33,712 nt of DNA from Muribaculaceae bacterium (lineage in GTDB: Bacteria; Bacteroidota; Bacteroidia; Bacteroidales; Muribaculaceae): assembly GCA_017427945.1 (NCBI GenBank), contig JAFRRT010000034.1:1-33712 (forward strand), read 5' to 3'. Below the pieces are notes generated by a model. The model was not told the origin of the DNA. It saw nothing but the letters and a program-made list of their open reading frames with translations, and did not search any database. How positions within the stretch are numbered: the first letter of the stretch is position 1; each line of letters begins with the position of its first letter. Both the position numbers and the translations under genes were made by a program. Shown here piece after piece: positions 13,346 to 28,769 of this stretch.

Positions 13346-13353
13346 TATCTTTG
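13346..13353 (+). promoter_or_regulatory. Promoter -7 element (TATCTTTG) of the btuB operon
   Basis: TATCTTTG matches the Bacteroidota -7 consensus TAnnTTTG. It lies about ten bases before the first riboswitch helix, which is where transcription should start. The -33 element is not a clear TTTG. The same octamer occurs at the same relative place before the second riboswitch at 24808. Confidence 0.7.
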
Positions 13354-13360
13354 CGGCGTG

Positions 13361-13547
13361 ATTTGGTGTCCGGGGTTACGGCCCTGGGTGAAAAGGGAAC
13401 CGGGTGGGAATCCCGGACAGACGGTGCTGCTGTGTGCCCCCTGTAGTGAAATCCCGCATCTGTTCACTGTGCGTAGGCTCTTGAAGGAGTGCAGCATGGG
13501 AAGGACAGAGCAATGAACGGGGTAGGGGCGAGTCAGAAGACCTGCCA
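13361..13547 (+). promoter_or_regulatory. Cobalamin riboswitch controlling btuB-btuG
   Basis: Conserved aptamer segments appear in order: AAAAGGGAA at 13391, GGTGGGAATCCCGGACAG, the GCTGCTGTG core, a TCACTG block, and the B12 box AGTCAGAAGACCTGCC at 13531-13546. These define the adenosylcobalamin riboswitch family. The btuB ATG follows 26 bases after the B12 box, with no terminator hairpin between. B12-bound RNA therefore probably blocks translation initiation, a mode known in Bacteroidota; the mode is inferred here. Confidence 0.93.
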
Positions 13548-13572
13548 AATTGTAACATAGAAACCCGGAATA

Positions 13573-15660
13573 ATGCGTAGAACGTTAGTCATAGCATTTT
13601 TGGCCCTGTCGTGTGTCCTGTGCGCCCGTGCCCAGGAAGGCGTGCTTGCGCACCAGGCCGACTCGGTCATGGCGCCTGTTGGACATGGCCGCCTTGACTC
13701 TATGCAGTATATCCAGAATGTCATCATCTATGGCCGCCGCCCCTATGAGGATGTCATCCCCGCCCAGGAACTCACAGGCAAGCAGCTCGAGGGACTGAAC
13801 AGTCACTCGGTGGCCGATGCTGTGCGCTACTTTGCCGGTGTGCAACTCAAGGACTACGGCGGCGTGGGCGGACTTAAGACGGTCGATATTCGCTCGATGG
13901 GAACTAACCACATGGGCGTATTTTATGATGGCATCCAGATTGGTAACGCTCAGAACGGTCAGGTTGATTTGGGTAAGTTCTCGCTCGACAACATCGAGGC
14001 GATTTCGCTCTATAACGGACAGCGCAGTAACATCTTCCAGAGTGCTAAGGACTACGGCTCGGCAGGCACCATCTATCTGCGTACACGTCGCCCCAAGTTC
14101 GCTGTTGGCAAGCGTGATAACCTGAATGTGTCGTTCAAAACCGGCTCTTTTGGGCTTGTCAACCCCAGTGTGCGTTGGGAGCATAAGCTGAGCCGTTCGG
14201 TGAGTCTATCTTTCAATAGTGAGTTTACTTATGCTACGGGTCGTTACCGCTTCCGCTACATGCGTCATTACAGCGACGGCTCACTGGCGTGGGACACGAC
14301 AGCCGTGCGTCAAAACGGCGAGGTGCGCTCCTATCGAGTCGAGGGTGCAGTCTTTGGCGTGATGCCCAGCGGCAAGTGGCATGTCAAGGCCTACTTCTAT
14401 GACAGCAGCAAAGGCATTCCCGGTGCCATCGTCAACAACGTGTGGAAGCATGCCCAAAAACAATGGGACAGCAACTTCTTTGTGCAGGGAGCCTATCAGC
14501 GCAAGTACACCGACCGCTACGAGATGATGTTTAACGCCAAGTACTCGCGCGACTATCTCCACTACCTCAATCCCGACACCACGTTGATGTATATCGACAA
14601 TAAGTTCTGGCAGGACGAGATTTACCTCTCCACCGCCAACAAATACACCATTCTCACTGACTGGGACGTGAACCTCTCGGTGGACTACCAGTGGAACAGC
14701 CTTGACGCCACCTTGACAGGCTTCGGCTATCCCATCCGCCACACCGTGCTCACCGCTTTGGCAACGGCTTGGACGTGGCATGGCTTCAAGGCGCAGGGCA
14801 GTCTGCTCTACACGATGGTCAACGATCGCTCCTCGGCCCGTTTCAATGGCCAGGTGGTCGGCAAGATGAGCAAGTACTTGAACAAGGTGACGCCTGCCGT
14901 CTTCCTCAGTTGGCAACCCTGGCTGGAGCGTGATTTCAACCTGCGCGCCTACTATAAGCGCATCTTCCGTATGCCCACCTTCAACGACCTGTATTACACC
15001 GACATGGGCAACATCACGCTCGACCCCGAATATGCCACGCAGTATAATGTGGGATTTCTTTATCGTCTGTTGGCCAACCGCGGTTTGCTTGAGGGTATCA
15101 AATTGAGTGCCGATGCCTACTACAACTACATCACCGACAAAATCATTGCTGTCCCCAAGGGAACAGGCCAGTACCGCTGGATGATGATGAACGTGGGAAT
15201 CGTGAAAATACGCGGAATTGATGTGTCGGCACGCACTACCTTGCGTTTTCCCGCCGATGTGATTCTTGATATCAACCTGAGTTACACCTACCAGAAAGCG
15301 CAGGATTACACCAATCCTGCCGACAATGGGGACGGTGGCACCTACAAGGGGCAGCTTGCCTATATCCCTTGGCATAGCGGCTCGGTTGTGGGGCATGCCG
15401 CTTGGCATGACCTTGACGTGAACTACAGTTTCATTTATGTGGGTGAGCGCTACCACACCAGCGCCAATACCCGCGAGAACCATGAGCAGCCGTGGTACAC
15501 CCATGACCTCTCGGCTGGCTATCTCTTCCGTTTGGGCAAGAGCAGGACATTAAAAGTGTCGGCCGAGGTCAACAACCTCTTTAACCAGTACTACGACGTC
15601 ATCCTCAACTATCCCATGCCGGGACGCAACTACAAACTCATCCTCAAATTCGACATCTGA
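13573..15660 (+). CDS. btuB: TonB-dependent vitamin B12 outer-membrane receptor BtuB
   Basis: This is an outer-membrane beta-barrel that imports cobalamin using TonB energy. The 695-aa product has a cleavable signal peptide (MRRTLVIAFLALSCVLCARA). A plug domain spans about residues 45-170 (DIRSMGTNHMGVFYDGIQIG, then EAISLYNGQRSN). A 22-strand-type barrel region ends in a terminal strand (NYKLILKFDI). Motifs typical of TonB-dependent receptors include the late NNLFNQYYD segment. There is no N-terminal carboxypeptidase-like domain of the SusC type, which supports a vitamin or siderophore receptor over a glycan one. The assignment to B12 rests on the riboswitch directly upstream and on the BtuG-like lipoprotein that overlaps its stop codon. 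Confidence 0.88.
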   Translation: MRRTLVIAFLALSCVLCARAQEGVLAHQADSVMAPVGHGRLDSMQYIQNVIIYGRRPYEDVIPAQELTGKQLEGLNSHSVADAVRYFAGVQLKDYGGVGGLKTVDIRSMGTNHMGVFYDGIQIGNAQNGQVDLGKFSLDNIEAISLYNGQRSNIFQSAKDYGSAGTIYLRTRRPKFAVGKRDNLNVSFKTGSFGLVNPSVRWEHKLSRSVSLSFNSEFTYATGRYRFRYMRHYSDGSLAWDTTAVRQNGEVRSYRVEGAVFGVMPSGKWHVKAYFYDSSKGIPGAIVNNVWKHAQKQWDSNFFVQGAYQRKYTDRYEMMFNAKYSRDYLHYLNPDTTLMYIDNKFWQDEIYLSTANKYTILTDWDVNLSVDYQWNSLDATLTGFGYPIRHTVLTALATAWTWHGFKAQGSLLYTMVNDRSSARFNGQVVGKMSKYLNKVTPAVFLSWQPWLERDFNLRAYYKRIFRMPTFNDLYYTDMGNITLDPEYATQYNVGFLYRLLANRGLLEGIKLSADAYYNYITDKIIAVPKGTGQYRWMMMNVGIVKIRGIDVSARTTLRFPADVILDINLSYTYQKAQDYTNPADNGDGGTYKGQLAYIPWHSGSVVGHAAWHDLDVNYSFIYVGERYHTSANTRENHEQPWYTHDLSAGYLFRLGKSRTLKVSAEVNNLFNQYYDVILNYPMPGRNYKLILKFDI

Positions 15661-16805
15661 TGAAAAGAACGCTATATATTATATTACTGCTGACGGTGCT
15701 TGTAGGATGCCGCGAGGAAGTGACGATTTTCCTGCCCGAGCACGTTGCTGTGGCGCAGCCCGAATTCACCGACATCGAGGGCTTTTACCTGCTGTGCGAG
15801 GGCAACATGGGGTGGAACAAGGCAACGCTTGACTATTATGAGTACAGCAGCGGCGAGTACATCCGCAACATCTTCTCCTATGCCAATCCCACCGTGCCCA
15901 AGGAGATGGGCGATGTGGGTAATGACATCGGCATTTACGGCAGTAACATGTATTGCGTCATCAACTGCTCCAACAAGGTGGATGTGCTCGACAAGTACAC
16001 CTGCCGCAAGAAGTACCAGATCAATATCCCCAACTGTCGTTATATCCGCTTCTATGGCGGCTATGCCTATGTTACCAGCTATGCTGGCCCGGTGCAAATC
16101 AACCCCAACTACGAACAGCGTGGCTATGTCGCCAAAATCGACACGGTGACGATGCAGGTCGTGGACACTTGTCTGGTTGGCTTCCAGCCCGATGAACTGG
16201 AGATTGTCGAGGGCAAGATTTATGTCGCCAACTCGGGCGGCTACATGGTGCCGAATTATGAGAATACCGTATCGATTATCGACTTGGCGACTTTCAAGGA
16301 AGAGCGTCGCGTGCCCATCGCCATCAACCTTTCGATGGTCAAGAGCGACAGCCGCGGTGTGCTATGGGTGGCGTCGCGCGGTGACTACTATACCCACGGC
16401 AGCAAGATTTATGCCTATGACACCCGCAAGCAGCAGCTGGTCGATAGCATCGACTGCCCTGTCAGCAACATGTGGCTCGACGGAGATTCGCTCTATGTGG
16501 TGAGCACTGAGTGGAGTTATGTGTCGATGCACAACTCATTCTCCTATGCCGTCATCAACACCTTGACGCATGAGAAGGTGAGCGATAACTTCATCACCGA
16601 TGGCACCGACAAGGACATTGTCATCCCCTATGGCGTGGCGGTGAATCCGATCACCAAGGACATCTATGTGACCGATGCCAAGGACTATGTCTCCCCGGGC
16701 CGACTGTACTGTTTTGACCGTTACGGCAACAAGAAGTGGGACGTGCGCACGGGCGACATACCAGCACATTTCGCTTTTCTTGGAACCAATATCAATGAAA
16801 GATAG
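15660..16805 (+). CDS. btuG: BtuG-like surface lipoprotein (beta-propeller, B12 capture)
   Basis: In Bacteroides, BtuG is a surface lipoprotein that caps BtuB and binds cobalamin very tightly. This 381-aa product has a lipoprotein signal peptide with lipobox LVGC and Cys17 as the lipidated residue. The following REE fits the acidic Bacteroidota signal for export to the cell surface. The rest is a YncE/DUF5074-type seven-bladed propeller, with repeating strands such as LCEGNMGWNKATLDYYEY, YCVINCSNKVDVLDKYT and IYVANSGGYMVPNYENTVSI. Its ATG shares one base with the btuB stop, indicating translational coupling. The family call is firm; cobalamin binding is inferred from family and locus. I cannot confirm binding residues. 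Confidence 0.8.
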   Translation: MKRTLYIILLLTVLVGCREEVTIFLPEHVAVAQPEFTDIEGFYLLCEGNMGWNKATLDYYEYSSGEYIRNIFSYANPTVPKEMGDVGNDIGIYGSNMYCVINCSNKVDVLDKYTCRKKYQINIPNCRYIRFYGGYAYVTSYAGPVQINPNYEQRGYVAKIDTVTMQVVDTCLVGFQPDELEIVEGKIYVANSGGYMVPNYENTVSIIDLATFKEERRVPIAINLSMVKSDSRGVLWVASRGDYYTHGSKIYAYDTRKQQLVDSIDCPVSNMWLDGDSLYVVSTEWSYVSMHNSFSYAVINTLTHEKVSDNFITDGTDKDIVIPYGVAVNPITKDIYVTDAKDYVSPGRLYCFDRYGNKKWDVRTGDIPAHFAFLGTNINER

Positions 16806-16831
16806 TTTTCAGCAATTATATATAGATGATT

Positions 16832-18043
16832 ATGAAAAAACAAAGGAATATCGCAGCATTGGTGCTGCTCGTAATGACACTTACAATGTGGGCCAACCAT
16901 CCGTGGCTGACGCGCGTGTTTGACTACCGCCCCGCTCCGGGACAGTTCATCAACACCATGCCCCTGTGCAGGGTGGGGGAACCTATCGACAGCGTGCTGG
17001 CGCGTTGTCAGGCAAGTATCTGTGGCCATGTGGATACCATAACGACCACTTTTCATGGACAGACCATCACCCGCATCGACACCGTGTGGGCCGAGAGCAT
17101 GATTTCCCTCGGCGGCTATGGCGGCTATGTCATCGTGGCATTCGACCATCCCGTGGTCAATATGCACGATTATGACTTCGAGATTTGGGGCAATGCTTTT
17201 GTCAGCGACCGCGAGACAAATGGCGGTAGCAGCGAGCCTGGCATCGTCATGGTGGGTGTTGATATGGATGGTGACGGTGTGCCCAGCGATGCCGATAAGT
17301 GGTACGAGCTGGCGGGAAGCGAGTATGCTCATCCCAAGACTCAGCACGATTACACCATTACCTATTACCGCCCCGACGAGGGCAAGCAGCGTACACCCAG
17401 CCAAGTGAATCCGTTCCTGAATGACACGACCTACATCCACTGGACCAGCAATGATGTCAACCCCGACAGCGTCAGCGGTTACATGAGCCGCAATACCTAC
17501 CACAACCAGCCTTATTGGCCCTTGTGGCTGCAGGGCGAGGAGACGATGACCTTCAGCGGCACTAAGCTGCGTTGTAATGCGGTTGACTTGGGTGGTGATG
17601 ACGGCAATTCCTATTTTGTGCAATACTTCTTTGATTGGGGCTATGTCGATAACCTGCCGAATAACAATGAATTTGCCGTTCAAGGCGACGGCATTTGCAA
17701 TCCTGGTTTCAAGATCGATTGGGCAGTGGACGAACAAGGCCGTCATGTGAATCTCACGCATATCGACTTCATTAAGGTTTACAATGCCATGAACCAGTAT
17801 TGCGGATGGATGGGAGAGTCTTCTACCGAGGTCGCCGGAGGTATCGACTTCCACCCCGATGCAGAATTGCCCGCAACACTGCGTGGTGATGTGAATGGTG
17901 ACGACGAGGTGAACATTGCTGACATCAATGCCGTTGTTGACGTGATTTTGGCGGGCACTTTCCTTCAGGCTGCCGATGTAAGCAGTGATGGTGAGGTGAA
18001 CGTGGCCGACATCAACGCTGTCATCGATAGTATCTTGCAGTAA
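16832..18043 (+). CDS. Secreted GGYGGY-domain protein with dockerin-like tail, B12 operon
   Basis: Third gene of the riboswitch operon, 26 bases after btuG. The product is 403 aa. I preferred the ATG at 16832 (MKKQRNIAALVLL) over one six bases upstream, because it begins the signal peptide. No lipobox cysteine is present, so it looks soluble or non-covalently retained. Residues about 25-345 form one conserved domain, marked by RPAPGQFINTMP, SLGGYGGYVIVAFDHPVVN, an acidic DMDGDGVPSD loop, NQPYWPLWL and IDFIKVYNAMNQYCGW. Similar domains are often annotated as 'cell surface' or PKD-like proteins in Bacteroidota. Residues 348-403 form two EF-hand dockerin-like repeats (DVNGDDEVNIADINAVV and a second copy). 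The same N-terminal domain is fused to a propeller in the gene at 25183. Biochemical role unknown; a part in corrinoid capture is inferred from context. Confidence 0.8.
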   Translation: MKKQRNIAALVLLVMTLTMWANHPWLTRVFDYRPAPGQFINTMPLCRVGEPIDSVLARCQASICGHVDTITTTFHGQTITRIDTVWAESMISLGGYGGYVIVAFDHPVVNMHDYDFEIWGNAFVSDRETNGGSSEPGIVMVGVDMDGDGVPSDADKWYELAGSEYAHPKTQHDYTITYYRPDEGKQRTPSQVNPFLNDTTYIHWTSNDVNPDSVSGYMSRNTYHNQPYWPLWLQGEETMTFSGTKLRCNAVDLGGDDGNSYFVQYFFDWGYVDNLPNNNEFAVQGDGICNPGFKIDWAVDEQGRHVNLTHIDFIKVYNAMNQYCGWMGESSTEVAGGIDFHPDAELPATLRGDVNGDDEVNIADINAVVDVILAGTFLQAADVSSDGEVNVADINAVIDSILQ

Positions 18044-18063: not shown

Positions 18064-18108
18064 ACACGCCCAGACATTCTAAATAATGAGTGTTTGGGCG
18101 TGTTTGTG
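18064..18108 (+). terminator. Terminator of the first B12 operon
   Basis: ACACGCCCAGACA (18064-18076) pairs with TGTTTGGGCGTGT (18091-18103), 13 bp with one G-T pair, followed by a T-rich stretch TTGTGTT. It closes the riboswitch-btuB-btuG operon. Confidence 0.8.
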
Positions 18109-18149: not shown

Positions 18150-18232
18150 TACCATGATTCTGCCATTGATTGTTAGGCAGCATGAATCAGTTATTGTTAT
18201 CAACTACTAATAAATACATTAAACCGTTTATG

Positions 18233-19822
18233 ATGAAAAATTTTAAACTCTTGACTGTCGCGCTGATGACACTGGCAATGTTTGTGCCCGCTCATGCCGA
18301 CGAACTCACCGTGTTTGAGGGCACCGATGTGAGCGAGAATGTGCCCATCCGTAGCTACTATTATGATACTCAAGACCATAAGGTGCAGACGATTCTGCCT
18401 GAATCAGAATTTCTCTCAATTGTGGGCGCTTCCATCACTTCGATGAAGTTTTATATAGCCGACGCTGCCGGTAACCAGATGAACGGTGGTAAACTGGCTG
18501 TCTCGATTGGCCAAACTGCCCTGAACTCGTTCCCGAGCTTTGACCCATCGTTCAGCAGCGAGGAACTCACCCAGGTTGCTGAAATTACCATGACTCCTGG
18601 TGGAACCGAGGTTGTCATCGATTTTGATGAGCCCTGGGTTTATGAGGGTGGTAATATCATGATCCAGACCACTGTGGTTGAAACCGGTAATTATCCCCAT
18701 GTGTTTTTCCTGGGCCAGCAGACAAGTGTATTGAATGCTGTTTATGGCAAGGGCGTTATTGGTGCTACAGGTTTCTATCCCATGACCACTTTCACCTATA
18801 CTGGCGGTGTTGAGGACCTGGCAAGTGTTGCTCCTGCCGAAATCAACTTTGGCGAGCTCTATCCCGAGGAACAGGCTGTCGAAGCCATCACCGTGAAGAA
18901 CATAGGTAAGAATGCATTCACCCCCGTCTTCAGCGGCATCCAGGCACCCTTCAGCATTGAGGATGCAACCGAGGTCGCTTCTGGTGAGACCAAGACTTTT
19001 AACGTGACCTTCGCTCCCACTGCCCTGGGTGAGTACAACCAGACGCTGACTATCGACTGCGGCGCTGCCGGTCAGTTCGAAGTAGCCCTGAGTGGTGCAC
19101 AGATTGAGGTCCCCACCGTTGTGGTTGTTGCCGACGGCAATGCTCTGAACAGCTATCTGCCTGTTTACTCTTACTACTATGACACCCCCACCAGCCGTGC
19201 ACAGATGATTTATCCTGACGAGATGCTTGCCAGTCTCGATGGCAAGAAGATTTCGACGGTTACATTCCATTCCAATGGTCCAATCGACTTTGGTGGCGGT
19301 AAGCTTCAGCTGTCCTTCAAGGAAGTTGAGCAGGTTGGTTTTACCGGCTACACTTTAGTAACTGATCTCACTACAGTGGCTACCCTCGTTCCTGCTAAGG
19401 GCGATGCCGACCTTACCTTCGTCCTTGATGAGCCTTATGAGTACAATGGTGGCAACCTCTTGATCGAATGTTTGATGCTTCAGCAGGGCTCCTACGGTAA
19501 CGTGAAGTTCATTGGCGTGAATACTGACTACTATCCCAGTTTGTACTACTATGGAAGCAGTTCAAGCGATGTTGACCACTTCTTGCCTAAGGCAAGCTTT
19601 AGCTATGTAAATGAAGACACGCCCGAGCCTCAGCACCTGCGTGGTGACGTGAACGGTGACGAAAGGGTAAGTATCGCCGACGTGACGGCCCTCATTGATT
19701 ACCTGCTTGGTGTGGCTCCTGAAATTGATCCTGCAGCCGCCGACTGCAGCCTTGACAACAAAGTAAGCATTGCCGACGTGACGGCCCTCATCGACTACCT
19801 GCTCTATAAGTCTTGGGATTGA
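18233..19822 (+). CDS. Secreted multidomain protein with ASH-like and dockerin-like domains
   Basis: I do not recognise a specific function. The product is about 529 aa from the ATG at 18233; an adjacent ATG at 18230 is equally possible. The signal peptide runs MKNFKLLTVALMTLAMF to VPAHA. A beta-rich domain with a YYYDT motif occurs twice, at about residues 23-190 and 295-460 (VPIRSYYYDTQDHKVQTI and LPVYSYYYDTPTSRAQMI). Between them, about 194-290, is a segment like the ASH/choice-of-anchor D fold (PAEINFGELYPEEQAVE, then TFNVTFAPTALGEYNQTL). The C-terminal 60 residues are two dockerin-like EF-hand repeats, each with IADVTALIDYLL. The two DNA copies of that repeat are nearly identical, suggesting recent duplication. 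It is paralogous to the next gene. It probably acts in the periplasm or at the cell surface. Confidence 0.75.
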   Translation: MKNFKLLTVALMTLAMFVPAHADELTVFEGTDVSENVPIRSYYYDTQDHKVQTILPESEFLSIVGASITSMKFYIADAAGNQMNGGKLAVSIGQTALNSFPSFDPSFSSEELTQVAEITMTPGGTEVVIDFDEPWVYEGGNIMIQTTVVETGNYPHVFFLGQQTSVLNAVYGKGVIGATGFYPMTTFTYTGGVEDLASVAPAEINFGELYPEEQAVEAITVKNIGKNAFTPVFSGIQAPFSIEDATEVASGETKTFNVTFAPTALGEYNQTLTIDCGAAGQFEVALSGAQIEVPTVVVVADGNALNSYLPVYSYYYDTPTSRAQMIYPDEMLASLDGKKISTVTFHSNGPIDFGGGKLQLSFKEVEQVGFTGYTLVTDLTTVATLVPAKGDADLTFVLDEPYEYNGGNLLIECLMLQQGSYGNVKFIGVNTDYYPSLYYYGSSSSDVDHFLPKASFSYVNEDTPEPQHLRGDVNGDERVSIADVTALIDYLLGVAPEIDPAAADCSLDNKVSIADVTALIDYLLYKSWD

Positions 19823-20007: not shown

Positions 20008-20038
20008 TTTGGTATTTCGGCAAATGGTTGTACTTTTG
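20008..20038 (+). promoter_or_regulatory. Canonical Bacteroidota promoter for the 20091 gene
   Basis: TTTG at 20008-20011, then 19 bases, then TACTTTTG at 20031-20038: an exact fit to TTTG-N19-TAnnTTTG. The start codon follows about 50 bases later. Confidence 0.8.
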
Positions 20039-20090
20039 TGAATTGAGTTATTTTTGTGTTTTCTATAAATCATCTAAAACTTTATTGATT

Positions 20091-21443
20091 ATGAAGAAAT
20101 TTTTAACTTTAATCGCTGTGGCCGCGATGGCATTTGCCGCACAGGCCGCTGAGGTAACCGTTGCCGATGGCACCACTACTGGTGAGTACGCTCCCGTCTA
20201 TGGTTACAACTTCGAAACCGATCAGCACAACCAGATGCAGTATCCCGCTGCTGAACTGACTGGTATTGCTGCTGGCAGCGAAATCACTGCCTTGAAGTTC
20301 TATACCAGCACCCCCGATGCAGTAAATGCTCTGGGTGGCACTGTTAGGGTTTCGTTGGGTAACATGGAGGAGGCTACTCCTTGGGGTGTTGACGGTTATG
20401 GTTATATTTCCGGCAACTTGCTGGATGCTGAGGTAACATCTGTTGCTACTGTAGCTCCTGCTGCCGATGCCGATGGCGTTTGGACCATTACCTTCGATGC
20501 TCCCTTTACTTATACTGGTGGCGCTTTGTTGGTAGATGTTCAGACCGTTGCTGGTGAGTATAAAAGCACCTACTTCTATGGTAAGGAAATGGATTCATAC
20601 TTAGTGATGAGTACTTATGGCTACGCTGGCACTAAGAAGGGTCAGACCCTTCTTCCCAAGGCTACCTTTACCTATGAGGCTGGCGGTGAAGAACCGGGTA
20701 TCGCTACTTTGGCACAGGCTAACGCACTGGAGGACGCTGCTGAGTTCACCTTCGGTGGCGACGCTGTTGTTACCGTTTGCAAGAATGGCTACGTGTTCCT
20801 GCGCGACGAGAGCGGCTATGGCATGATTGAGGACGTTAACGGTACATTTGAGAACGGTCAGGTGCTGAACCAGGGCTGGACTGCCACTAAGACCACCATT
20901 GTTGAACCTTGGGTTAAGTACACCAATGCTGCAAACCTCACTGCCAGCGGTGTCAGCAATTCCGCACTGGCTGCTGCACAGAAACTCACCGAAGCCCCCG
21001 ATGAGACCATGCTCAACGCCTATGTTTATATCGAAAATGCATTGCCAAGTAGTGGCGGTATGCCAATGCTCCCTCAACACTATTTTACGCTGCCTGACAA
21101 CTCGAAACTTTATGTGACCGACTACTTGTGGGCATCAAGTTGGGATGCCAACGGGAATTACAATGTCTATGGTGTTCTTTGCAAAGAAGACGGCAAAGTG
21201 AAGATCGATATCATTGGATTCGAGCCTTATGAAGAGCCTCAGCCTCAGGGCCTGCGTGGTGACGTGAACAAGAGTGGCGATGTAACCATTGCTGACGTAA
21301 CCGCTCTGATCGACTATCTGCTTGGCGTGGTTGACGAACCCGACGTTGATCCGGTAGCAGCCAACTGCAATCTTGACGATAAGGTTTCTATCGCCGACGT
21401 AACCGCTCTGATTGACTACCTGCTCAATAAGACTTGGGATTGA
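20091..21443 (+). CDS. Secreted protein with YYYDT-type domain and dockerin-like tail
   Basis: No specific function recognised. The product is 450 aa from the ATG at 20091 (MKKFLTLIAVAAMAFAAQA), which starts a clear signal peptide; the longer upstream reading frame is not needed. Residues about 21-200 match the repeated domain of the preceding gene (YAPVYGYNFETDQHNQMQYP, then GSEITALKFYTST). Residues about 205-385 are a different, strand-rich segment (VCKNGYVFLRDESGYGMIED, later DNSKLYVTDYLWASSWDANG) that resembles OB-fold modules of secreted Bacteroidales proteins; this is tentative. The last 60 residues are two dockerin-like repeats ending in NKTWD, almost the same as the KSWD end of its neighbour. 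It has its own promoter and 3' hairpin, so it is a separate unit produced by tandem duplication and divergence. Confidence 0.75.
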   Translation: MKKFLTLIAVAAMAFAAQAAEVTVADGTTTGEYAPVYGYNFETDQHNQMQYPAAELTGIAAGSEITALKFYTSTPDAVNALGGTVRVSLGNMEEATPWGVDGYGYISGNLLDAEVTSVATVAPAADADGVWTITFDAPFTYTGGALLVDVQTVAGEYKSTYFYGKEMDSYLVMSTYGYAGTKKGQTLLPKATFTYEAGGEEPGIATLAQANALEDAAEFTFGGDAVVTVCKNGYVFLRDESGYGMIEDVNGTFENGQVLNQGWTATKTTIVEPWVKYTNAANLTASGVSNSALAAAQKLTEAPDETMLNAYVYIENALPSSGGMPMLPQHYFTLPDNSKLYVTDYLWASSWDANGNYNVYGVLCKEDGKVKIDIIGFEPYEEPQPQGLRGDVNKSGDVTIADVTALIDYLLGVVDEPDVDPVAANCNLDDKVSIADVTALIDYLLNKTWD

Positions 21444-21807: not shown

Positions 21808-24015
21808 ATGATTCAGACTGTACTGAAGCGTGATGGTCGCGTCGTCGGCTATAACGAAGAAAAAATCAAAGCTGCAATCCGCAAAGCCATGCTCGCCACC
21901 GAAATGGGTGAGGACGAGAGCTTGATTCAGCGCATAGCCGACCGCATCGGACAACGCGGTCGCGCACAAATGAGTGTCGAGGACATTCAGGACCAAGTGG
22001 AACTGGAACTGATGAAAAGCCCCCGCAAGGAGGTGGCGCGTTGCTACATCAACTATCGCCAGAAGCGCAGCGTGGCTCGCAAGGCCAAGACGCGTGACCT
22101 TTTCCTGGAAATCATCAATGCCAAGAACAACGACGTCACACGCGAGAACGCTAACATGAATGCCGACACCCCTGCCGGCATGATGATGAAGTTCGCGAGC
22201 GAGACGACAAAACCCTTCGTCGATGATTACCTCTTGAGCGAGGAAGCACGTGAGGCGGTGCGCGGCAATTACCTTCACATCCACGACAAGGACTATTATC
22301 CCACCAAGAGCCTCACCTGTGTCCAGCATCCGTTGGATAAGGTACTGGAGCAGGGATACATGGCGGGCCATGGCGAGTCGCGCCCTGCCAAGCGCATCGA
22401 GACGGCAGGCGTCATTGCCTGCATCACGATGGAGACCGCCCAGAACGAGATGCACGGTGGTCAGGCTATCCCGGCATTTGACTTCTATCTGGCTCCTTAT
22501 GTCCGTCTCTCGTTCATCGAGGAAGTGAAGAATCTTGAGGAAATCATGGGACAGGACTACAGCCGCCTTTATGATGCGAAACTCGACGACTTCATCGAGC
22601 GTGACCTGGACTTCCTGCAGGGCGACGAGCGCATCCTGCAACATGCCGTCAACAAGACGGTGCGCCGTGTTCACCAGGCGATGGAGGCCTTTATCCACAA
22701 CATGAACTCCATTCACTCGCGCGGAGGCAACCAGGTGGTCTTCAGCTCCATCAACTATGGCACCGACACCAGTGCCGAGGGGCGCTGCATCATCCGTGAA
22801 CTGCTCAACTCCACCTACGAGGGTGTGGGCAACGGCTCTACCGCCATCTTCCCCATCCAGATTTGGAAAAAGAAGACCGGCGTGAGCTACAAGCCCGGGG
22901 ATCCCAACTACGACCTCTACCAGCTCGCCTGCAAGGTTACGGCACGCCGTTTCTTCCCCAACTTCGTCAACCTCGACGCCACTTACAACCAGCATGACCT
23001 GTGGCGTGCCGACGATCCCAAGCGCTACAAGTATGAGTTGGCGACGATGGGCTGCCGCACCCGTGTGTTCGATAACCGCTTTGGCGAGAAGACCTCCATC
23101 GGTCGCGGAAACCTCTCGTTCTCGACCATCAACATTGTGCGCCTTGCCATCGAGTGCATGGATATCAAGGACAAGCAGGAGCGCATCGACAGCTTCTTTG
23201 CGAAGTTGGACAATATGTTGGAAATCACCGCCCGTCAACTCAATGACCGCTACCAGTACCAAAAGACCGCCATGGCCAAGCAGTTCCCCCTGCTCATGTC
23301 GCAGCTATGGATTGGTGCCGATGAACTCAACCCCGACGACAAGGTCGAGAGCGTCATCAATCAGGGTACGCTGGGTATCGGTTTTATCGGTCTGGCCGAG
23401 TGCTTGATTGCCCTTGTTGGTCATCACCACGGCGAAAGCGACGAGGCACAGCAGCTGGGTGTCAAGATCATCACTTACATGCGTGACCGTATCAACGAGT
23501 TCAGTGAGCGCTATCAGCACAACTATAGTGTGCTCGCCACGCCTGCCGAGGGCCTTGCCGGCAAGTTCACCCGTCGTGACCGCAAAGACTTCGGCGAAAT
23601 TCCTGGCGTGACCGACAAGATTTACTATACCAACAGCAACCATGTGCCTGTCTATTACAAGTGCTCACCCAAGCACAAGGCCGAGGTCGAGGCGCCTTAT
23701 CATGCCCTTACTGGTGGCGGTCACATCTTCTATGTCGAGATTGACGGCGATGCCACCCACAACCCCGAGGCCATATCCAATGTGGTGGACCTGATGGACA
23801 AGTACAACATGGGCTACTGCTCGGTGAACCACAACCGCAACCGCTGCATGGACTGTGGTTATGAGGATGCCACCGAGGGCCTCGAGGAATGCCCCAACTG
23901 CCACAGCCACAACATCGATCGCCTGCAGCGCATCACCGGCTACCTAGTCGGCACTACCGACCGTTGGAACAGCGGCAAACTTGCCGAACTCAAGGATCGC
24001 GTCGTCCACAAATAG
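21808..24015 (+). CDS. nrdD: Anaerobic ribonucleoside-triphosphate reductase (class III)
   Basis: NrdD reduces ribonucleoside triphosphates to deoxy forms under anoxia using a glycyl radical, and needs no cobalamin. The 735-aa product starts with an ATP-cone regulatory domain (VLKRDGRVVGYNEEKIKAA, residues about 5-95). The catalytic ten-stranded barrel follows, with SLTCVQHPLDKVL and the MNSIHSRGGNQVVFSSINYG region. The C terminus has a zinc site of four cysteines (680, 683, 695, 698) and the glycyl-radical motif RITGYL with Gly711. nrdG follows 39 bases later, so they form an operon. Length and motifs are complete and nothing suggests inactivation. Confidence 0.97.
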   Translation: MIQTVLKRDGRVVGYNEEKIKAAIRKAMLATEMGEDESLIQRIADRIGQRGRAQMSVEDIQDQVELELMKSPRKEVARCYINYRQKRSVARKAKTRDLFLEIINAKNNDVTRENANMNADTPAGMMMKFASETTKPFVDDYLLSEEAREAVRGNYLHIHDKDYYPTKSLTCVQHPLDKVLEQGYMAGHGESRPAKRIETAGVIACITMETAQNEMHGGQAIPAFDFYLAPYVRLSFIEEVKNLEEIMGQDYSRLYDAKLDDFIERDLDFLQGDERILQHAVNKTVRRVHQAMEAFIHNMNSIHSRGGNQVVFSSINYGTDTSAEGRCIIRELLNSTYEGVGNGSTAIFPIQIWKKKTGVSYKPGDPNYDLYQLACKVTARRFFPNFVNLDATYNQHDLWRADDPKRYKYELATMGCRTRVFDNRFGEKTSIGRGNLSFSTINIVRLAIECMDIKDKQERIDSFFAKLDNMLEITARQLNDRYQYQKTAMAKQFPLLMSQLWIGADELNPDDKVESVINQGTLGIGFIGLAECLIALVGHHHGESDEAQQLGVKIITYMRDRINEFSERYQHNYSVLATPAEGLAGKFTRRDRKDFGEIPGVTDKIYYTNSNHVPVYYKCSPKHKAEVEAPYHALTGGGHIFYVEIDGDATHNPEAISNVVDLMDKYNMGYCSVNHNRNRCMDCGYEDATEGLEECPNCHSHNIDRLQRITGYLVGTTDRWNSGKLAELKDRVVHK

Positions 24016-24054
24016 GCGTTAGGCATTAGGCTCCTAACACCTAAAGCCTAAGAA

Positions 24055-24537
24055 ATGCTTCGCATTTTACATATCGTTGAAGGCACCAGTGTCGATGGGC
24101 CAGGTATGCGCACGTCAATTTACATGGCGGGCTGCAACCACCGTTGCCCTGGCTGTCACAATCCCCAGTCTTGGGATTTTAAGGGTGGGGAAGAGCGTAC
24201 TCTCGACGAACTGATGGCGGTCATTGCCTACAATGAGGCACCCGTCACCCTCTCGGGCGGCGACCCACTGCAGCAGCCCGACGGCACCCGCGCCCTCATT
24301 CACCGCATCAAGCAGGAGTTGGGCTACAACGTCTGGTGCTTCACTGGCTACACGTGGGAGGAAATCATGGAAGACCCCGCCCTTATGGCTGTCGTCCGCG
24401 AACTCGACGTCCTCGTCGATGGCCCTTTCATGCAGGCCGAGCGCGATACCACGCTCCGCTTTCGAGGCAGCCGCAACCAGCGCCTCATCGACGTCCAGAG
24501 CACCCTATCTACTGGCACCATCACTCTCTGGACCTGA
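24055..24537 (+). CDS. nrdG: Anaerobic ribonucleotide reductase activating protein
   Basis: NrdG is the radical-SAM activase that generates the glycyl radical on NrdD. The 160-aa product is of normal length. It carries the cluster motif CNHRCPGC with cysteines 27, 31 and 34, and the SAM-contacting TLSGGDPLQQP segment near residues 62-72. It ends with the ITLWT tail. It is downstream of nrdD on the same strand. A short GC-rich hairpin (CGCCCGCAGGGCG) about 30 bases after the stop may end the transcript. Confidence 0.96.
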   Translation: MLRILHIVEGTSVDGPGMRTSIYMAGCNHRCPGCHNPQSWDFKGGEERTLDELMAVIAYNEAPVTLSGGDPLQQPDGTRALIHRIKQELGYNVWCFTGYTWEEIMEDPALMAVVRELDVLVDGPFMQAERDTTLRFRGSRNQRLIDVQSTLSTGTITLWT

Positions 24538-24815: not shown

Positions 24816-24836
24816 CAGCGACAAATTGAACGTGTC

Positions 24837-25023
24837 AAGGTTCCCTGCCCTTCGAGAGGGACAGGGATGAAAAGGGAATCAGGTGAGAATCCTGGACAGT
24901 ACCCGCTGCTGTAACTCCCCGCGACACATTGCGCGGCACGCATGCCACTGGTTGCAAACTTAACGTCTGCATCATCACCGGGAAGGCGCCGACGCGATGG
25001 GGGAGAAGTCAGAAGACCTGCCT
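24837..25023 (+). promoter_or_regulatory. Second cobalamin riboswitch
   Basis: A CCCTGCCCTT/AGGGACAGGG hairpin is followed by AAAAGGGAATCAGGTGAGAA, TCCTGGACAG, CCCGCTGCTGTAA, the GCCACTGG block and the B12 box AGTCAGAAGACCTGCC at 25007-25022. The B12 box is identical to that of the first riboswitch. The aptamer core is closer to the family consensus than the first copy. Unlike the first, 160 bases separate the B12 box from the chosen start codon. Confidence 0.95.
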
Positions 25024-25182
25024 TCGCACGGCCAACTCTCGTGGTTCACGCGGCATTTGAACCCTGGCGAAGTAGATGATGCAGAGCAATACGCTCACAT
25101 TCTCAAATTTTGACCAATGCACAACCGGTGCAGTTTCATGTCGCATGATTCACAACAAATTGTGGAATTAATGAAATGTGAT

Positions 25183-27756
25183 ATGAAAAAATCAGTTCTT
25201 TCGGCAATTGTAGCTATGGCAGCATTGACTGCTCTGGCTGCCAATTCGCCTTATATCGCTCACGTATATGACTTTTTGCCCGCTCCGGGTCAGTTTGTAA
25301 ATGTGTTCCCGTCTTATTCACCGGGTTATACCCAGGACAGCATCAACGCACAACTGGAGAATGCTTTGTGCGGTAAGCTGGGGGGTACGGTCAGCCTGGG
25401 TAGCTACGGCGGCTACATTGTCTTTGGCTTTGACCACCCCGTGATCAACAAGCACGGCTATGATGTGAAGATCTATGGTAACGCCATGCAGAGCAACGCC
25501 GTTCCCGATCAGGCTGGAGGCAGCTGCGAACCGGGCATCATCATGGTGGGTGTTGACATGGATGGCGATGGTGTGCCCAGCGATGGCGATAAATGGTATG
25601 AAATAAAGGGCTCCGACTACGACCGTTGTCAGCATGGCTTTGAGGTGACTTACTATAAGCCCGACGAAAACAAAGAACGGGTGCCTCATGCCAGCTGGAG
25701 GTTCATCAACGACATCGAGTATGTCTATTGGACAAGTAATGACCAGAACCCCGACAGCACCAGCGGCTATGTATGGCGCAATACCTTCCGTAACCAACCT
25801 TATTGGCCCCTGTGGATTGAGGATACGGTGCTCACCTTCCGTGGCACTAAGTTGCCCAATACTTCCATCGACATGAGCGGTGGCAATGGCAATAACTGGT
25901 TCCAGCCCTTCTTTGGCGAGGGCTATGTGGACAACCTGCCCAATGGTAATGAGTCTGGTTTCATGATCGACTGGGCGGTTGACGAGGACGGCAATCCCGT
26001 CACACTCGACCACATCGATTTCATTAAAGTGTATAGCGCCCAATTCGACTATTGCGGTTGGCTGGGTGAGGTGTCAACCGAGGTTTGCGGAGCCGAGGAC
26101 CTGCACCCTGATGCCGAGCCTGATGTGCCCGGTCCTGGCCCCGACGATTTCACGTTCACCAATGGCGTTATCTTCATCAACGAGGACCGCTATGGGGCTA
26201 ACCAGGGCTCTATCAACTTCTACAATTACGACTATGACGAGATGGAGTATAACGTGTTTGCCATGGTCAACCCTGGCGTGAAGCTGGGTGTGACCTCGCA
26301 GCACGGGCAGCTCTTTGGCGGACGACTCTTTGTGGTAAGCAAGCAGGCCAACAGCAGCGAGGCGTCTGGCAGCACGGTGGGCTCACGTTTGGCAGTGCTC
26401 GATGCCGCTACGCTCAAGCAGCAGGGCAGCATCTTGCGCTTTGGCGCCACGCCCGACAGCGTGTATGATGGCCGTGCCTACTGTGCGGTCAACAACGATA
26501 AGGGATATGTCTCGACCAATGCCGGCATCTTTGTAGTGGATGTAGCCTCTTTGGCTGTCAGCGGCCCCATCGACGGCACGCAGTCCAGCGCCAAGGGCGA
26601 CTACAACAGCCTCTATTATGATCAGTGCGGCGACATGGTGCGCTTCGGTCAATATGTTTTTGCCGTGCAGCAGGGCAAGGGACTCCATGTGATTGACCCC
26701 GTTACCGATGCGGTTGTCACCACCTTGCCGTTCCCCGATATCGTCACGGTGTTTGTCACGGCTCAGGGACACCTGTTTGTGGCGAACAACAACCGTGAAG
26801 TCTATGACTTCGGCACTGGCCCTTATGAGGCCGATTTCACCCAGATTGACCCGGTGACTTTCGAAACGCTAGCCGTCCACCAGATTGATGGCGATAAAGG
26901 TGCCCTGTGTGCCTGGGGCGCTTGGCATGCCCGCATGTTGTGCGTGGATCCCAATGCCGAACGCGTGTATTACAACCACGAGGAATACCAGAACTTCATC
27001 AGTTGCTATGATATTACCACGCATGTGTTGACCGACCACTGTATCGACCTGCCCGACGGTGTGGAAATCAACTGGGACGGAACGCACAACGTTCAGGGGC
27101 TTTATGCTTCGGCCCTGAGTTTTGACCCGCACACCGGTGACCTTGTTGTACAGACCACCGAGGCGGCACCGATGTATGCCTATCAGAATTTCAATCACAA
27201 CTGGGTGCTGTTCTATGACGCTGCAACCCTTGAGCTCAAGCGCCAGGTGCGCCTTCAGGACGCTTATTGGTTCCCGGCAATGGCGGTTTACCCTGACGTG
27301 TGTGACCCGACGATTGCCATCGGGAACATGACACTGAACAAGGGAGCCAGTCAGGTCATCGATTTGACTGACGTGATTCAGGATGCAGACAACATGGCGG
27401 CTCTTGCCGTGACGGTAGCCAGCAGCGCAAACAATGCTGTGGCAAGTGCCGAGGTGAGTGGCTTGAACCTGATTATTGAGGGCCTGGCAAAGGGTACCAC
27501 CGAGGTAAATGTCACAACCGACAGCAATGGCAAAACAGCAAGCTGCACATTCACCGTAACGGTGACCTCAATGCCCGGCGATGTGAATATGGACGGTGTG
27601 TTGAGCATTGCTGATGTGACAAGCCTCATTGATGTGCTGCTGGGCTCAGGGCTCGATATCTACGACCTGGCGGCTGCCGACGTTGACGGCAACGGCAGTG
27701 TCACCATCGCCGATGTCACAAAACTCATTGATATCTTGTTGACCGGCAATCACTAA
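25183..27756 (+). CDS. Secreted fusion: GGYGGY domain + BtuG-like propeller + Ig-like + dockerin-like
   Basis: First gene behind the second riboswitch, 857 aa from the ATG at 25183, which opens the signal peptide (MKKSVLSAIVAMAALTALAA). Upstream in-frame ATGs exist from 25117 but would bury the signal. There is no lipobox cysteine. Residues about 22-312 match the third gene of the first B12 operon (LPAPGQFVNVFP, SLGSYGGYIVFGFDHPVIN, MDGDGVPSD, NQPYWPLWI, IDFIKVYSAQFDYCGW). Residues about 320-705 look like a DUF5074/YncE-type propeller (GVIFINEDRYGANQGSINFY and later blades), related in kind to BtuG but clearly divergent. Residues about 708-795 are Ig/bacterial cadherin-like. Residues 796-857 are two dockerin-like repeats (GDVNMDGVLSIADVTSLI). 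Corrinoid capture is inferred from riboswitch control and fold; it could instead bind another corrinoid-related ligand. Confidence 0.8.
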   Translation: MKKSVLSAIVAMAALTALAANSPYIAHVYDFLPAPGQFVNVFPSYSPGYTQDSINAQLENALCGKLGGTVSLGSYGGYIVFGFDHPVINKHGYDVKIYGNAMQSNAVPDQAGGSCEPGIIMVGVDMDGDGVPSDGDKWYEIKGSDYDRCQHGFEVTYYKPDENKERVPHASWRFINDIEYVYWTSNDQNPDSTSGYVWRNTFRNQPYWPLWIEDTVLTFRGTKLPNTSIDMSGGNGNNWFQPFFGEGYVDNLPNGNESGFMIDWAVDEDGNPVTLDHIDFIKVYSAQFDYCGWLGEVSTEVCGAEDLHPDAEPDVPGPGPDDFTFTNGVIFINEDRYGANQGSINFYNYDYDEMEYNVFAMVNPGVKLGVTSQHGQLFGGRLFVVSKQANSSEASGSTVGSRLAVLDAATLKQQGSILRFGATPDSVYDGRAYCAVNNDKGYVSTNAGIFVVDVASLAVSGPIDGTQSSAKGDYNSLYYDQCGDMVRFGQYVFAVQQGKGLHVIDPVTDAVVTTLPFPDIVTVFVTAQGHLFVANNNREVYDFGTGPYEADFTQIDPVTFETLAVHQIDGDKGALCAWGAWHARMLCVDPNAERVYYNHEEYQNFISCYDITTHVLTDHCIDLPDGVEINWDGTHNVQGLYASALSFDPHTGDLVVQTTEAAPMYAYQNFNHNWVLFYDAATLELKRQVRLQDAYWFPAMAVYPDVCDPTIAIGNMTLNKGASQVIDLTDVIQDADNMAALAVTVASSANNAVASAEVSGLNLIIEGLAKGTTEVNVTTDSNGKTASCTFTVTVTSMPGDVNMDGVLSIADVTSLIDVLLGSGLDIYDLAAADVDGNGSVTIADVTKLIDILLTGNH

Positions 27757-27800: not shown

Positions 27801-28769
27801 ATGAAAAAGATTTTTACTTTGGCAATTGGAGCTTTGATGGCTTCGGCTGCATGGGCTGGTGTGATTACGCTTGACATGAACAAGGCGCTGAATCCCGAAA
27901 CGCTGACATTCGATGCGGTCGGCATGTGGACAGAGTGCTACAATGACGCGGACTACACATGGTTGGAGTTCGGAGATGCTAACGGAGAGTTCATGCTCTC
28001 ACACCTCATTGGCGGCGAAGGCTCGTCTTGGGGAGGATACTATTGGGAGGGCTTCTGCCCCGCCATCGGTGGTGACCAGACTGACTATAGCCAGACTGGT
28101 TGGACTAACAATCAGAGCGGTTGCATGGCTGGCGGCGGTTGCGTCATCAATGAAGATGGCAGCGTGACAGCCGATCCTGAGCAGCCCTATTTCGTGTGCT
28201 ACTACAGCTCTTGGTACGATGTTGATGGCAGCCTTCAGGTAATGTTCATGGATAAGAACGGCGCCACCACCTTTGAGCCGGTGGGCGTTTATGTCTGCAA
28301 CCACCCCTGGGCTTACTACGACTGCGAGCATGGTGAGGGTGTTGCCAGCGCATTTGAGGAAGGTGACTACTTAGAACTGACTGCTATTGGCGTGTCCGCA
28401 GATCGTGCCGAGACTAGTACCAGCATCCGTCTTGCCGAGTTTGTCGACGGTCAGCTCAACGTTGCCAACGACTGGACGTTCTTTGATCTCTCCAGCCTGG
28501 GCCAGGTCACAAAGGTTTACTTTACCCTGAGCTCGACCGATTCCGGTGACTGGGGCATGAACACCGCAGCCTACTTCTGCATGGACAAGTTCCAGGTGAG
28601 TGATGGAGAGCCCACATCTGTTAAGGATGTCAATGCCGAGAAGACTGTGGCTGGCGTGAAGTACGTGAACATGGCTGGCATGACCAGCGATAAGCCCTTT
28701 GATGGTGTGAATGTAGTCGTTACTACCTACAGTGATGGCTCTACCACCACCGCAAAGGTAATCAGGTAA
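27801..28769 (+). CDS. DUF4465-type secreted protein of the second B12 locus
   Basis: The product is 322 aa with a signal peptide (MKKIFTLAIGALMASAAWA). Residues about 30-275 match the DUF4465 pattern: a WEGFCPAIGGDQTDYS-like segment, GGGCVINEDGS, VGVYVCNHPWAYYDC, and the strong C-terminal block WTFFDLSSLGQV to DWGMNTAAYFCMDKF. DUF4465 proteins occur near B12 uptake genes in Bacteroidota; I do not know the molecular function and cannot say if this equals BtuH. The last ~45 residues (GVKYVNMAGMTSDKPF to STTTAKVIR) resemble beta-strand sorting tails of the type IX secretion kind; this is tentative. It lies 44 bases after the fusion gene with a terminator behind it, so it is probably under the same riboswitch. 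Confidence 0.78.
   Translation: MKKIFTLAIGALMASAAWAGVITLDMNKALNPETLTFDAVGMWTECYNDADYTWLEFGDANGEFMLSHLIGGEGSSWGGYYWEGFCPAIGGDQTDYSQTGWTNNQSGCMAGGGCVINEDGSVTADPEQPYFVCYYSSWYDVDGSLQVMFMDKNGATTFEPVGVYVCNHPWAYYDCEHGEGVASAFEEGDYLELTAIGVSADRAETSTSIRLAEFVDGQLNVANDWTFFDLSSLGQVTKVYFTLSSTDSGDWGMNTAAYFCMDKFQVSDGEPTSVKDVNAEKTVAGVKYVNMAGMTSDKPFDGVNVVVTTYSDGSTTTAKVIR

Follow-up and report, generated by a model that had tools for sequence, protein, structure and literature searches.

In Bacteroides thetaiotaomicron, the proteins BtuH, BtuG and BtuJ (the last of family DUF4465) bind vitamin B12, and the operons under riboswitch control rise without B12 (PMC12751083). Two of these binders can also be joined. 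BtuG1 (BT_1490) carries a BtuH domain on the C-terminal side of its BtuG propeller and has been solved together with BtuB1 by cryo-electron microscopy (PMC10404256); it has since been renamed BtuGH, and both of its halves bind cobalamin (PMC12751083). Judging from chain size and content, PDB entry 8blw should be this BtuB1-BtuG1 complex. For the BtuH domain, B12 binding has been demonstrated (PMC8941943), and PDB entry 7biz is BtuH2 (BT_1956) with B12 (PMC10404256, PMC8941943), which clasps the corrin ring and the nucleotide loop and makes few contacts with the lower ligand (PMC8941943). A hand-over of the vitamin between BtuH and BtuG has been proposed because they hold opposite faces of it (PMC12751083). 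Here we describe another combination of this kind, in contig JAFRRT010000034.1 of a Muribaculaceae bacterium (assembly GCA_017427945.1). The whole stretch analysed, 33,712 nucleotides long, is called the window below. A single gene at 25183..27756 on the forward strand encodes a secreted protein of 857 residues, built of a BtuH domain, a propeller, a weak Big_2 domain and a dockerin, and it stands behind a cobalamin riboswitch.

The fusion of a BtuH domain with a propeller is as such already known from BtuGH, which likewise carries both in one polypeptide under a cobalamin riboswitch. What is new here is the reversed order with BtuH first, the propeller of another subfamily, and the dockerin instead of a lipid anchor. 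BtuGH, on the other hand, has the propeller first, is lipid-anchored and is clamped on BtuB1, whereas the operon of the window protein contains no BtuB. In the literature searched on BtuG/BtuH, BtuK, DUF5074 and cobalamin, no fusion of a BtuH domain followed by a propeller is described. For DUF5074 the search returned an outer-membrane-vesicle proteome (PMC9431301), and on the cobalamin riboswitch together with Muribaculaceae no paper was found. We use "K" for the fused-type propeller subfamily of DUF5074 and "H" for the BtuH domain, so that the two known ways of joining read G-H in Bacteroides and H-K here. As the joining has occurred repeatedly, it becomes directly testable whether one accessory binder hands B12 over to another, as has been proposed. 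We consider it probable that the H-K fusion is a riboswitch-controlled, secreted two-site corrinoid-capture protein that serves the BtuB-BtuG transporter encoded elsewhere in the window, where K would provide the second site.

The BtuH domain and the K propeller of the fusion

The open reading frame extends from 25117 to 27756, and a start at 25183 gives 857 codons in a single frame. The signal peptide (25183..25242, +) was read from the sequence by eye, without a predictor, and looks typical (MKKSVLSAIVAMAALTALAA preceding NSPY). By the same reading it has no lipobox cysteine, unlike the BtuG protein encoded from 15660 in the window. The fusion thus has no lipoprotein anchor of the B. thetaiotaomicron type, a trait that belongs to the B. 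thetaiotaomicron proteins rather than to the domain. The BtuH-type domain follows at 25243..26106 (+, residues 21-308), and after a linker rich in proline and glycine (26107..26160, +, delimited in the alignment of fused rows) comes the K propeller at 26161..27294 (+, residues 327-704). The latter matches Pfam DUF5074 (PF16819) with 247.3 bits (E 3e-73, cut-off 27.2 bits), and the genome scan gives a match at the same bases. Towards the C-terminus there are a Big_2 Ig-like domain (27325..27549, +, residues 715-789), which is weak with 19.8 bits and falls below the cut-off of 22.8, and a dockerin-like tail (27574..27741, +, residues 798-852; Dockerin_1, PF00404), which reaches 27.4 bits against a cut-off of 22.9 and is also found in the genome scan. 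The reading frame, Pfam and the solved relatives therefore confirm the layout given in the preliminary description, namely one 857-residue protein with a "GGYGGY" domain, a propeller, an Ig-like part and a dockerin-like tail, with the Big_2 match below its cut-off.

That description had also held the N-terminal part to be closely similar to a neighbouring GGYGGY protein, and to be a domain of no assigned function. The similarity is borne out: residues 2-312 align with the 405-residue product of 16826-18043 at 50% identity over 345 columns (E 2e-114). The domain matches, while the literal motif does not, since the fusion reads GSYGGY. The lack of a function is not tenable, for the domain matches 8blw_B with E 1.1e-53 and 7biz_A with E 1.8e-31 and is the B12-binding BtuH domain. 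A domain without function was accordingly rejected as a candidate on this homology, and the formerly unassigned domain receives a named function. BtuH2 differs from the window fusion in its N-terminal PKD domains and its lipid anchor, and in having no propeller.

For the binding pocket, the published list of BtuH2 contact residues (PMC8941943) was mapped through the alignment with 7biz, and eight residues were checked. The window fusion has the same residue at five of them (Gln333, Asn399, Trp511, Trp577 and Leu578), and so do all 37 H domains of its named relatives (23 fused, 14 alone). This suggests that the BtuH pocket is largely kept in the fusion, with three contacts that differ (see below).

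For the propeller, we have compared a K profile built from 32 fused-type propellers with the PDB. The first match, 9s6c, has an E value of 4.8e-41 over nearly the whole domain, while the BtuG-type chains (8baz, 3dsm and others) follow at about 5e-22 to 3e-21 (8baz: 5.3e-22). A profile of 17 BtuG neighbours instead matches 8ptf (1.3e-55) and 8blw_B (9.5e-55), with 8ptd also within 1e-54 to 1e-55. K does not group with BtuG in these comparisons, as 9s6c ranks before 8baz. The K propeller of the fusion is only remotely related to the BtuG of the window (19% identity, profile-profile E 4e-20), and the two score 247 and 39.9 bits, respectively, against DUF5074. In addition, K scores in 198 genomes of the order are split by a wide gap, at least 340 bits in 13 genomes including the source and no more than 144 bits elsewhere. 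The possibility that the fusion simply carries a diverged copy of the window's own BtuG was rejected on the DUF5074 scores, the different first-matched solved chains and this gap. By sequence comparison, K is a DUF5074 subfamily apart from BtuG and related to it. The statement in the preliminary description that the fusion unites the two partner types of the other operon is imprecise for the same reasons of score and first-matched chain. That the middle region is a propeller, on the other hand, agrees with both lines of evidence: it is related by sequence to solved BtuG-type propellers, and its predicted model is almost all beta (mean predicted local distance difference test score 85.7, predicted template-modelling score 0.89). 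In the window, K is not encoded as a lipoprotein lid beside btuB either: it has no lipobox and no btuB in its operon, while a true BtuG stands beside btuB in the other one.

Three aromatic residues of BtuG2, Trp194, Trp272 and Tyr316, are said to narrow its ligand cavity, and 3dsm is apo-BtuG2 (PMC10404256). We have taken 8baz as BtuG2 because its residue letters match those given for BtuG2 in that paper at an offset of 45. In the HMMER alignment, Trp272 and Tyr316 fall on K positions that hold Trp in 31 of the 32 rows and Tyr in all 32; in the window protein these are Trp581 and Tyr641. K is like the BtuG2-type propellers in being detectably homologous and in two cavity aromatics, and unlike them in being a distinct subfamily, in lacking a counterpart of Trp194 and in not being encoded beside BtuB here. 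The matched aromatics favour corrinoid binding by K, a support that falls short of showing it.

The closest solved chain, 9s6c, is a single domain about 21-27% identical to K over long alignments. It is named only "Quinoprotein amine dehydrogenase-like protein", which leaves room for the reading that K is the Bacteroides BtuK under another name and that the fusion is a BtuH-BtuK protein. This reading is compatible with corrinoid capture by the H-K fusion, and we give it a chance only slightly short of even. In its favour, weaker K-like proteins (108-141 bits) in L192-L195 have BtuB, BtuG and in most cases BtuH as neighbours, an arrangement like that of BtuK1/2 in operon 1 of B. thetaiotaomicron (PMC12751083). 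On the other side, no paper was found that links 9s6c to BT_1486/BT_1487, and the word propeller is absent from the main text of the article on BtuK (PMC12751083).

Association of H and K with B12 loci

The fusion starts 143 bases past a cobalamin riboswitch at 24821..25039 (+; RF00174, 107.3 bits, E 3.4e-26), and the two-gene operon behind this riboswitch is called operon 2. Its other gene, directly after the fusion at 27801..28769 (+), encodes a secreted DUF4465 protein of the BtuJ type. It matches PF14717 with 115.1 bits (cut-off 25 bits), and in the PDB it matches 9fct (BtuJ1) with E 6.4e-11 and 9i2l (BtuJ2) with E 7.8e-6. Its MNTAAY agrees with the MNTxxY motif of BtuJ (PMC12751083). It belongs to the same B12-binding family as BtuJ1 and BtuJ2, and is unlike them in having no lipobox and in sharing a two-gene operon with the fusion.

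In a survey of 198 genomes of the family, H was found in 157, DUF5074 in 184 and the cobalamin riboswitch in 191. Co-location was examined in a sample of 65 of the family genomes (every third, G003 to G195), using PF16819 matches of at least 180 bits only and leaving out weaker ones. There are 45 such strong K matches, in 31 of the sampled genomes. A riboswitch lies within 13 kb upstream on the same strand in 33 of the 45, while by chance about 0.5% of genes would be so placed (138 riboswitch matches in 65 genomes of ~2.6 Mb each). An H domain lies within 6 kb in at least 30 of the 45, and a riboswitch or H is present for at least 39. Outside the family, ten strong-K loci were taken, chosen by K score, from 10 of the 11 such genomes of the order; H and BtuB occur in all ten, BtuG in nine and the riboswitch in eight. 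Among loci hand-picked from H and K rows, which are not a random sample, a riboswitch is present in 34 of 40. Overall, the H and K proteins are strongly associated with B12 loci, the association on which the preliminary description had made its functional link depend. Its broader argument, that the two domains belong together and that the ligand is most likely a corrinoid, is likewise upheld. The K propellers of DUF5074 would be a component of B12 scavenging loci, common in the family and known here from several further families of the order as well, that is not described in the literature searched.

Several observations weigh against corrinoid capture by both domains. In the H pocket, three of the eight checked contacts differ in the window, His476 being Arg, Tyr510 Asn and Phe401 Met; at the first position, 2 of the 23 fused rows share the Arg and the rest have His, and the other two are both variable across the genus. 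In K, Trp194 of BtuG2 has no counterpart in the HMMER alignment, so that two of the three cavity aromatics are matched. B. thetaiotaomicron BtuK1 binds B12 and the similar BtuK2 does not (PMC12751083), which means that membership in a B12 locus is no proof of binding. The published map of BtuB1G1 without B12 has the fused H docked in a non-binding pose (PMC10404256). Among the 45 strong K matches, 12 have no riboswitch in reach, some of them near contig ends, and in L082, L084, L097 and L098 K stands alone, with neither a riboswitch nor a recognised Btu gene next to it. Strong K occurs in only 13 of the 198 order genomes, and the PF16819 model also matches E. coli and Methanosarcina acetivorans among 14 controls; DUF5074 alone is therefore no mark of B12, and weak matches mean little. 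Finally, the cohesin partners that the dockerin might use are weak and patchy.

The missing Trp194 and the behaviour of BtuK2 also speak for the view that only the BtuH domain binds B12, and that K has no ligand and serves as a module for docking or presentation, with BtuB, BtuG or some other surface protein as its partner. As would be expected of a module, K occurs in very large proteins as well, and among four that were scanned, one (L075) has BspA-type leucine-rich repeats and one (L076) has two K domains. This view has difficulty in explaining why the best conserved positions of K include those matched by two cavity aromatics of BtuG2, and why K is the first and only recognised gene behind a riboswitch at some loci, such as L070 and L073. 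We regard it as rather unlikely.

Another view accepts a ligand but changes its identity: K would bind another corrinoid, a precursor or a breakdown product, and the fusion would broaden the cobamide range instead of relaying one molecule. The clean separation of the K subfamily in score suits it, as does the small contact of BtuH2 with the lower ligand (PMC8941943). Against it, BtuG2 itself already binds several corrinoids (PMC10404256). This view seems unlikely to us.

The B12 operons with K show several further architectures. Very large K proteins of 1548-2099 residues are encoded in L075:5492-11791, L103:5534-10927 and L076:5915-10561. In L077:1781-5911, L078:2885-6346, L079:1-3182, L092:1-4307 and L190:3945-8177, proteins of 1060-1435 residues that follow K in the operon contain divergent H domains. 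A true BtuG-then-BtuH fusion of 679 residues lies beside BtuB in another family (L183:14390-16429), with two K proteins in the same stretch. Riboswitch-led K proteins of 413-437 residues are found in L069:11585-12826, L070:2480-3736, L072:5147-6460 and L073:3412-4668; their C-terminal tail matches that of the DUF4465 protein, which suggests a common sorting tail.

Fused and split forms and a possible relay

Within the genus, a K match at E 1e-30 or better was found in 48 of 101 genomes; 38 of these are at least 74% identical to the window K and 10 are at 33-36%. Fused or split state was called from frame length and confirmed for the loci that were fetched. By this measure, 23 of the 38 close K genes are fused, with frames of 857-990 residues, and 13 are split, with frames of 557-577 residues; the remaining two have a 608-residue frame and, at a contig end, a 621-residue frame. 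As named relatives, 39 loci were taken, of which L162 and L163 were dropped as only their tail matched. The 37 used comprise 23 fused and 14 split ones, and the H and K genes are adjacent in all the split ones. They come from uncultured Bacteroidales labelled Muribaculaceae, Prevotellaceae, Porphyromonadaceae or only Bacteroidales, with goat, water buffalo, roe deer and sheep as the stated sources.

The split H genes have their own dockerin at the end and the split K genes their own signal peptide, and the two genes overlap in some species. The fused genes have neither the H dockerin nor the K signal peptide, but the linker instead, which is exactly PGPGP in 16 of 24 fused rows and a similar Pro/Gly-rich run in the others. 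A riboswitch stands directly upstream in all ten fused loci tested (of the 23 named). The DUF4465 gene directly downstream and the dockerin are each kept in 37 of 38 K loci; both are missing only from L144, a locus truncated at the end of its contig.

The hypothesis that all fused genes form one clade was rejected by the approximately unbiased test (p-AU 3.2e-4), which presumes that the group was specified in advance of the tree. Branches with good support require two or more changes between the fused and split states, and the best tree, whose outgroups are very distant, needs three. The state has changed repeatedly. Such an alternation could be taken to mean that the two neighbouring genes were joined by chance and that their fusion has no functional meaning, especially since a deletion can fuse H and K genes that are adjacent and in some relatives overlapping. 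Chance alone sits badly with the fact that 23 of the 38 close K genes are of fusion length, with the Pro/Gly linker in place and both the H dockerin and the K signal peptide cleanly lost, and we think it quite improbable.

Under the two-site capture reading, the steps would be as follows. When B12 is scarce, the riboswitch would permit expression of operon 2, as is known for this riboswitch class. The BtuH domain would clasp the corrin ring and the nucleotide loop in the manner of BtuH2, and the K propeller, taking the other face, might hold the corrinoid in its central cavity. If BtuGH is a guide, the short Pro/Gly linker could let the vitamin pass between H and K, and BtuG, the lipid-anchored lid on the BtuB made from operon 1, would receive it last. 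The dockerin, which here replaces the lipid anchor, may dock on a cohesin-bearing partner or sort the protein outside the cell, which is the weakest step.

As for this last step, there are at least 136 Dockerin_1 matches in the source genome (150 of 221 candidates scored). A cohesin candidate is a secreted protein of 375 residues (L166:6148-7275, contig C6) with two weak cohesin-like domains and a dockerin of its own; its cohesin-like domain reaches, together with its neighbour, 25.6 bits against a cut-off of 24.1, a weak match. A cohesin exceeds the cut-off in 37 of the 101 genus genomes. A dockerin-based display system seems possible in this group.

A bolder version of the same reading can also be put forward. 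K may represent a class of corrinoid-binding propellers that has so far gone unrecognised, and H-K may form a relay complete in itself, with no lipid to fix it to the outer membrane, a dockerin-tailed or freely secreted "corrinophore" that would grip one cobamide on both faces in turn and deliver it to BtuG-BtuB, with a third, BtuJ-type binder coming from the same transporter-less two-gene riboswitch operon. As a whole, we hold this version to be possible but doubtful.

The first riboswitch operon and the region between the operons

The transporter that the fusion would serve is encoded in operon 1, behind a second cobalamin riboswitch at 13347..13563 (+; RF00174, 84.4 bits). Its first gene, btuB at 13573..15660 (+), encodes a TonB-dependent transporter with a Plug domain, whose match to TIGR01779 (E 2.6e-31) is far below the equivalog cut-off. 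It is followed by the BtuG lipoprotein propeller at 15660..16805 (+), with the cysteine at residue 17, which is the protein covered by the 17-relative profile above, and by a stand-alone BtuH with a dockerin tail at 16826..18043 (+; 8blw_B E 9.2e-53, 7biz E 3.4e-37; PF00404 29.8 bits). The BtuG propeller and the GGYGGY protein are therefore separate neighbours in this locus, as had been stated. Past the BtuH gene there is a terminator-like hairpin at 18064..18103 (+), a 16-pair stem followed by a T-rich tail; as a class, such sites are not commoner here than in shuffles of the same region.

In the source genome, which is 96% complete, these two riboswitches are the only ones of their class that were found. 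Overall it contains two H domains, two DUF5074 matches, one DUF4465 protein and two cobalamin riboswitches, all of them inside the window.

Two more secreted dockerin-tailed proteins are encoded past the operon 1 hairpin and ahead of the enzyme genes that come next, at 18170-19822 and 20028-21443; no B12 link was seen for them in the translations and Pfam matches. Putative anaerobic ribonucleotide reductase genes (by resemblance nrdD/nrdG) at 21808-24537 sit between both B12 operons and stop ahead of the operon 2 riboswitch.

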